In this document: piece by piece, positions 31,331 through 32,714 of the stretch | Position numbering within the stretch: position 1 is the first letter of the stretch | How the letters are laid out: every line of letters begins with the position of its first letter | Assembly: GCF_001428505.1 (NCBI RefSeq) | Contig: NZ_LMHU01000005.1 | Location: forward strand, 496,001-560,000 | Reading direction: 5' to 3' | Source of the DNA: Terrabacter sp. Root181 | Lineage (GTDB): Bacteria; Actinomycetota; Actinomycetes; Actinomycetales; Dermatophilaceae | Length of the DNA: 64,000 nt | Program-made: the position numbers and the translations under genes | The notes under the pieces: generated by a model | What the model saw: only the letters and a program-made list of their open reading frames with translations | The model's database searches: none | Told to the model about the DNA's origin: nothing

Positions 31331-31363
31331 AGAAGGGCCCGGTCGCGATGACCGGGCCCTTCT
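31331..31363 (-). terminator. Terminator of the aberrant tRNA-Gly gene
   Basis: AGAAGGGCCCGGTC and GACCGGGCCCTTCT form a 14-bp stem directly after the CCA end of the tRNA on the minus strand. This fits termination of a single-gene tRNA transcript. Confidence 0.7.
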
Positions 31364-31367
31364 CATC

Positions 31368-31441
31368 TGGAGCAGGCGGCACGAATTGCACGTACGTCTT
31401 CCTTCTGGAAGAAGGCTGTTCTGCTACTGAACTACGCCTGC
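31368..31441 (-). tRNA. tRNA-Gly(UCC) with non-canonical D- and T-loops
   Basis: Seventy-four nucleotides including an encoded CCA. The acceptor stem GCAGGCG/CGCCTGC is a perfect 7 bp. The D-arm is GTTC-AGTAGCA-GAAC, the anticodon loop CTTCCAG gives anticodon TCC, and the variable loop has four bases. The T-stem GTACG/CGTGC holds one G-T pair. Three things are wrong for a translating tRNA: the D-loop lacks the GG pair (A at 18), the T-loop reads TGCAATT instead of TTCRANY (G at 55), and pair 27-43 is G-A. The other tRNA-Gly in this window (CCC) is fully canonical. It may be a pseudogene or a dedicated non-ribosomal tRNA. Confidence 0.8.
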
Positions 31442-31656
31442 GAGGCGACGCCAACCGTAGCAACTCCGGGCCGCCGGAGTCCAAACGGACGCGCCGGGAG
31501 CCTCGACCGAGCGCCGAGCGAAGGTCCTCCCAGTGCGGCCCACGGGCTCCGCTCGGTCCGCGCCGTGCCCGGTGGCATGGTGCGCCACACCACCGGGCCG
31601 GCGTCGCTCGAGGTCGCGGGCTGAGCCACGTCCAGCGACCGGGCGTCAGCGGACGC

Positions 31657-32529: not shown

Positions 32530-32708
32530 CCCCGAGCGGCCCACCGGACGCCGAGTCCTGTCCACCGGTGGGGCAGCCACGCAATAACGGACAGGAGTGG
32601 GGGACCCACTTTCGGGCCGGTCAGCCGGTCCTTGGGGTGAAGCCGCATCTGCGGCCGGGCATCTTCCGCCCGAACCCGACAGCTCACCTCACAGGCGTGG
32701 GAAGGAAG
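32530..32708 (+). ncRNA. ydaO/yuaA-type c-di-AMP riboswitch
   Basis: The leader contains the conserved blocks of the ydaO aptamer in order: CCGAGTCCTGTCC, GGACAGGAGTGGGGGACCC, GGGCCGGTCAGCC, GGGGTGAAGCCGCATCTGCG, GGGCATCTTCCGCCCGAAC, CCGACAGCTCACCTC and AGGCGTGG. Such riboswitches commonly control wall hydrolases in actinobacteria and turn expression off when c-di-AMP is high. The edges are approximate. Confidence 0.93.
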
Positions 32709-32714
32709 TCCACC

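Follow-up and report, generated by a model that had tools for sequence, protein, structure and literature searches.

Structure and surroundings of the tRNA gene

The window analysed here, a stretch of 64,000 nt from Terrabacter sp. Root181, contains a tRNA-Gly(UCC) gene (Table 1), whose neighbours are an acyl-CoA dehydrogenase gene and a gene for an FBP_C zinc-finger protein. The first-pass annotation of this DNA described a complete tRNA-Gly(UCC) in which CCA is encoded, the acceptor stem is perfect, the T-loop is TGCAATT with G55 and pair 27-43 is broken, and both the sequence and ARAGORN agree with it: the acceptor stem has 7 of 7 pairs, positions 27 and 43 are unpaired, and the T-loop residues are T54, G55, C56, A57 and A58. 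Residues of glycine identity and the discriminator (C35, C36 and U73) are retained together with G1-C72 and C2-G71, U33 is present, pair 51-63 is A-U and pair 49-65 is G-C. What the molecule lacks is G18 and U55 of ordinary decoding tRNA-Gly(UCC), A18 and G55 being found instead. The D-loop had been read as one without GG and its contact with the T-loop as unable to form normally. Both readings stand only partly: A18 does replace G18, but G19 is kept, and since G19/C56 and T54/A58 are preserved and only the 18-55 combination changes (from G-U to A/G), the contact is altered rather than abolished. In a search of the whole genome (12 contigs, 100% complete) with the Rfam model RF00005, which gave 48 matches over the cut-off of 29 bits, the window tRNA scored 49.3 bits, the third lowest value; Rfam scans with default filters, run on the window and on locus L001, gave no match for this tRNA.

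Table 1. Coordinates of the tRNA gene, its characteristic parts and its flanking signals in the window
Feature	Position	Strand	Basis or remark
Aberrant tRNA-Gly(UCC) gene with encoded CCA	31368..31441	(-)	Sequence, ARAGORN, family alignments A1 and A2
D-loop AGTAGCA	31422..31428	(-)	A18 replaces G18, G19 kept
Anticodon UCC	31407..31409	(-)	Flanking pair 32-38 Watson-Crick: C-G in 23 and U-A in 7 of 30 distinct sequences
T-loop TGCAATT	31384..31390	(-)	G55 replaces U55; T54, C56 and A58 kept
Terminator-like hairpin, 14-bp, GC-rich, directly 3' of CCA	31331..31363	(-)	MFE -32.4 kcal/mol, z -6.4
-10-like TACGGT, 12 nt upstream of G1	31454..31459	(-)	Upstream comparison, 15 loci
-35-like TTGGAC, spacer 19 nt	31479..31484	(-)	Upstream comparison, 15 loci

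Promoter-like and terminator-like signals recur among relatives of the gene. The motif TAnnnT was registered 10-13 nt upstream of the tRNA at all 15 loci compared, and TTGGAC at six of them. Twenty of 21 loci, which come from 19 genomes with two represented twice, have a hairpin of -25 to -42 kcal/mol behind the tRNA; the locus of genome G133 is the exception. A consensus scan of the window listed neither a terminator nor a promoter at the tRNA gene, in the former case because the hairpin has no U-run. The same window has a c-di-AMP riboswitch (RF00379, 67.1 bits) at positions 32570-32712, which adjoins a same-strand NlpC/P60 cell-wall hydrolase gene.

A canonical isoacceptor in the same genome

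Whether the aberrant gene is the sole tRNA-Gly(UCC) had been raised as a point to be checked. The genome search revealed a canonical tRNA-Gly(UCC), named so by ARAGORN, at C8:231355-231425 (69.4 bits). This second gene rules out the window tRNA as the sole UCC decoder, and because of its presence the aberrant tRNA need not decode. The other glycine tRNA loci called by ARAGORN in this genome are one Gly(CCC) and two Gly(GCC). Canonical Gly(UCC) was also read in 16 of 16 named carriers of the aberrant form (15 others and Streptomyces sp. P3) and in G726, a genome of the genus designated g160 that is considered below. In the window's genome a single tRNA-Gln(UUG) was detected, which is unusual too (L044, G000:C10:74166-74244; 40.1 bits), and a 60-nt, 33-bit RF00005 match absent from the ARAGORN list (L045, G000:C1:954682-954741) is a truncated or unusual tRNA-like element.

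Covarying stems and fixed loops

Alignment A2 was composed of 30 distinct aberrant sequences, nine from the family and 21 of the Streptomyces type; the copy of Streptomyces sp. P3, in which the anticodon stem is one base shorter, was omitted. In this alignment 98.9% of 660 cells are paired, double changes occur in 10 of 22 pairs, and both-side changes affect all four helices and 32-38. The number of doubly changed cells reached 56 versus 14.7 in shuffled alignments (0 of 500 shuffles were as high) and the covariation score was 0.307 versus 0.172, while further pair types were not above the shuffles (18 versus 19.2; 451 of 500). Both loops are fixed in all 30 sequences (D-loop AGTAGYA, T-loop TGCRATY), A18 and G19 each being present in 30 of 30. 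Conserved across genera with compensatory changes, the window tRNA is more than a product of chance.

A decaying pseudogene might be suspected from the non-standard loops and from the pair 27-43, which is unpaired in seven of the 30 distinct sequences. This supposition is contradicted by the covariation in A2: decay is hardly tenable because the stems covary while the D- and T-loops stay fixed. Relatives, for which random loss of stems was to be checked, have intact and covarying stems instead; neither this check nor that for a canonical isoacceptor refutes the first-pass interpretation. The complete 74 nt are, moreover, identical in seven of the eight carrier genomes of the window's genus, and the TAnnnT motif and the hairpin described above speak against decay as well. 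We therefore ascribe to this explanation only a negligible probability.

In its acceptor stem, discriminator U73, anticodon and length class the aberrant form is the same as canonical actinobacterial tRNA-Gly(UCC), 20 distinct sequences of which were compared. Their loops are different (D-loop ARTGGYA, T-loop TTCRATY), pair 51-63 is G-C in 15, C-G in four and G-U in one of them, C32/A38 is found in 19, and U33 in all. For 39 distinct canonical Gly(UCC/CCC) sequences the same pair is G-C in 34, C-G in four and G-U in one, pair 49-65 is G-U in 36 and G-C in three, and U33 is invariant (39/39). In A2, pair 51-63 is A-U in 26 and G-U in four of the 30 sequences; 49-65 is G-U in 21 and G-C in nine, G49 thus being kept. 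The T-stem of the Streptomyces form becomes regular only with one bulged U, and six of the 19 family carriers have C33. The Watson-Crick pair 32-38 was dropped as a proof of non-decoding, because canonical Gly(CCC) has U32-A38, likewise Watson-Crick, in 19 of 19 cases.

An altered core could also be expected from a regulatory or decoy tRNA, for instance an antagonist of T-boxes or a source of tRNA fragments. Weak T-box-like matches were indeed observed in seven of 13 genomes, including all five of the Streptomyces type, but none of the 13 had a match over the cut-off, and in the window's genome, where a match was absent at E 0.01, a T-box target is unsupported. Since the glycine identity elements are kept, and in the window CCA as well, such a function seems very improbable.

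Occurrence in the family, order and class

Of 149 family genomes searched with blastn, 20 gave matches; 19 of these are aberrant and one (G104, locus L065) has canonical loops. With a covariance model built from nine distinct aberrant sequences, 19 of the 149 genomes scored 97.6-100.6 bits and the next match 73, the distribution being bimodal. Eight of nine genomes in the window's genus carry the aberrant tRNA; the ninth (G148, 74% complete) has neither this tRNA nor FemAB. The search of the order (347 genomes, matches listed to E 1e-16) gave three high scorers, all of them family members, and three more matches at about 72 bits. The locus with canonical loops (L065:1501-1574) is a semi-divergent tRNA-Gly(UCC) with canonical D- and T-loops, G32-C38 and a weak T-stem, situated beside Gly(CCC); its genome, G104, and the atypical carrier G133 are of one genus.

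A pattern scan of named genomes detected 18 stretches: 15 in Intrasporangiaceae, including Terrabacter, Terracoccus, Humibacillus and Intrasporangium, one in Streptomyces sp. P3, and two in unrelated genomes. In the class, 47 of 394 genomes were over the threshold, namely the window's own, 38 of genus g160 and eight others. The aberrant form was read in all 38 g160 genomes and, by a separate search, in a 39th (G726), these 39 being every g160 genome listed with FemAB; the eight others are all canonical. Genus g160 is presumably Streptomyces; its flanks have 73-87% similarity with those of Streptomyces sp. P3 over about 2.4-3.2 kb. From one to three tandem copies are present per g160 genome (three at L210, two at L211 and two at L212), and anticodon-stem changes between the copies keep pairing. 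ARAGORN called the Streptomyces-type copy in only two of 30 loci, while RF00005 does detect the copies tried. A mobile origin was considered and dropped, as the Streptomyces form gave no match when plasmid and phage collections were searched with blastn at E 1e-5.

Two unrelated genomes also possess tRNA-Gly(UCC) with A18/G55, at L118:6962-7033 (an uncultured-bacterium bin) and L122:6893-6964 (Candidatus Yanofskybacteria). In both, D-loop AGTAGCA is combined with T-loop TGCAA, other tRNA genes are near, and the Rfam score is 63-64 bits. Their similarity to the actinobacterial form looks like convergence, and the occurrence of A18/G55 there implies that these changes may be compatible with decoding. 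One can assume, then, that the aberrant tRNA is a divergent working decoder, i.e. an extra or codon-specialised isoacceptor for GGA/GGG, and these two bacteria are in line with that. The canonical UCC tRNA already present in the genome argues against such a role, and so do the pair 51-63, other than G-C in 30 of 30 sequences, the C33 of six family carriers and the bulged U of the Streptomyces T-stem. On the other hand, the stems, the anticodon, G19/C56 and T54/A58 are all intact, U33 is kept in the window copy and in the Streptomyces-type copies, and U32-A38 is shared with canonical Gly(CCC). On balance we consider a decoding function unlikely, though it is the strongest competitor among those weighed.

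Association with Fem enzymes and wall chemistry

The search for FemX-like genes, suggested by the first-pass annotation, was successful in the window's own genome, where two PF02388 proteins are encoded. The fem genes are on contigs other than that of the tRNA, which is thus unlinked to them; FemX has 372 aa and is followed by an alanine racemase-like ORF. PF02388 was registered in 67 of the 149 family genomes, that is in 19 of 19 carriers versus 48 of 130 others. For the FemX orthologue the disproportion is larger (17 of 19 carriers versus 7 of 130 other genomes), with Fisher p of 5.6e-15 by genome and 6.6e-5 by genus; of these 24 FemX, 18 were verified by sequence and the other six were identified only by their entries in the Pfam table. 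The two carriers devoid of the orthologue are G028, an 81% complete genome that does have the second Fem gene, and G133, which has only a remote FemAB (27% identity). FemX was found in the absence of the aberrant tRNA in G063 (99% complete draft), G029 (58% complete) and G033 (81% complete), and in four genomes with divergent FemX of ~60% identity. FemAB is present in each of the 16 named carriers.

The converse does not hold in the class, where 173 of 394 genomes have FemAB but only 40 were seen to carry the aberrant tRNA. Repeated search of 26 FemAB-bearing class genomes devoid of the aberrant tRNA gave matches in 22, which were all read and of which none is aberrant, and no match in four. 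A universal rule connecting FemAB with the tRNA was therefore rejected, and since most of the sampled FemAB-bearing genomes do without it, the aberrant tRNA is no general need of FemX. A FemX tree of 37 rows, built by a quick method, requires few changes of the tRNA label (few gains and losses), so that the support comes from few independent events and the genomes are not independent. In this tree the carriers of the Streptomyces type and those of the Intrasporangiaceae are not grouped together, which is at variance with co-transfer of FemX and the tRNA.

Glycine might also be delivered to a non-wall aminoacyl-tRNA-dependent transferase engaged in natural-product, lipid or protein modification. 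Passages in the literature mention Fem-like enzymes that use Gly-tRNA in Streptomyces natural-product pathways, and G133 has the tRNA without a FemX orthologue. However, the presence of the tRNA in every FemAB-bearing g160 genome drawn and in eight of nine genomes of the window's genus is not patchy as for gene clusters, and the family-level association is with FemX and the second Fem gene. Such a destination is therefore improbable.

The wall of Terrabacter is probably of the LL-Dpm-Gly3 composition. Direct text on it was not found in the open-access literature, and the wall of the window's own organism would be glycine-bearing. The wall check proposed earlier succeeded for one carrier species: Intrasporangium calvum (G015) has the aberrant tRNA, and for its strain 7 KIP the available text describes LL-A2pm, peptidoglycan of the A3gamma type bridged by triglycine, and one more glycine attached to D-Glu (PMC3035309). 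For S. coelicolor, passages of two papers state that normal precursors receive their glycine branch from FemX, and those with D-Ala-D-Lac from VanK (PMC6001138, PMC9739842).

Comparison with known non-translational tRNAs

Non-proteinogenic tRNA-Gly is known from staphylococci (Giannouli et al. 2009, via PMC4052509, PMC9976931). According to passages in these sources, the pairs G49-U65 and G51-C63 are strong for EF-Tu, and the staphylococcal wall tRNAs have A49-U65 and A51-U63 (PMC4052509, PMC9976931) and have lost GG18-19 (PMC4052509); review passages name U73 as a hallmark of bacterial tRNA-Gly. As described there, the staphylococcal and actinobacterial systems have in common an extra glycine isoacceptor beside the canonical one, a disturbed D-loop GG, A-U at 51-63, U73, Fem enzymes in the genome and documented glycine bridges, in our case for I. 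calvum. In the staphylococcal tRNAs, which belong to a different phylum and were compared by description, 18 and 19 are both changed (UU or CU) and 49-65 is A-U, whereas the actinobacterial form keeps G19 and G49 and has A18 with a new G55, C33 in some cases and, in Streptomyces, the bulged U. The parallel drawn in the first-pass annotation therefore extends to one of two D-loop and one of two T-stem changes, and because G19 and G49 are unchanged, the window tRNA was not filed as a member of the staphylococcal type. The pseudo-tRNA tRNAOther of Bacillus cereus, compared by its description in the available text only (PMC3399842), is also non-translational, and its deletion alters the cell wall, but it flanks a genomic island. 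An earlier description of an actinobacterial wall tRNA-Gly was not found in the open-access literature, which leaves out most subscription journals.

A putative glycyl donor for the cell wall

Probably (we estimate about 0.62), the aberrant tRNA is a dedicated ribosome-avoiding glycyl donor for FemX-type wall enzymes, which would work like the staphylococcal non-proteinogenic tRNA-Gly without belonging to it. For this wall role and for avoidance of EF-Tu, both deduced from sequence comparison, speak the spare canonical tRNA, the covariation, the FemX-like genes and the glycine bridges of one carrier. Survival of G19/C56, the many FemAB-bearing class genomes without the tRNA and the A18/G55 of two possible decoders weaken the original claim of a wall donor that is not a decoder. 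The tRNA would be transcribed from its own predicted promoter and charged by GlyRS, with G1-C72, C2-G71, U73, C35 and C36 retained. Its capture by EF-Tu and the ribosome would be weak owing to the changes in pair 51-63 and in the 18-55 contact, and Gly-tRNA would therefore stay available to FemX and to the second FemAB transferase. These two enzymes may add glycine to diaminopimelate of peptidoglycan precursors.

A broader proposal, to which we give somewhat less than an even chance, is that Streptomyces and glycine-bridge Intrasporangiaceae share a conserved, decoding-incompetent tRNA-Gly dedicated to the wall. It may have been invented independently of the staphylococcal solution, as a second case with marks of its own, namely A18/G55, a weak 51-63 pair, a closed anticodon loop and a bulge in the T-stem, and may have largely escaped notice because the Streptomyces form is mostly missed by a widely used gene finder. 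If this is true, Streptomyces, which is tractable and whose FemX has been identified, would have a conserved, separate glycine carrier. The idea would be testable there via one tRNA gene, and genome annotation may fail to record a tRNA gene that is conserved in a genus of major antibiotic producers.
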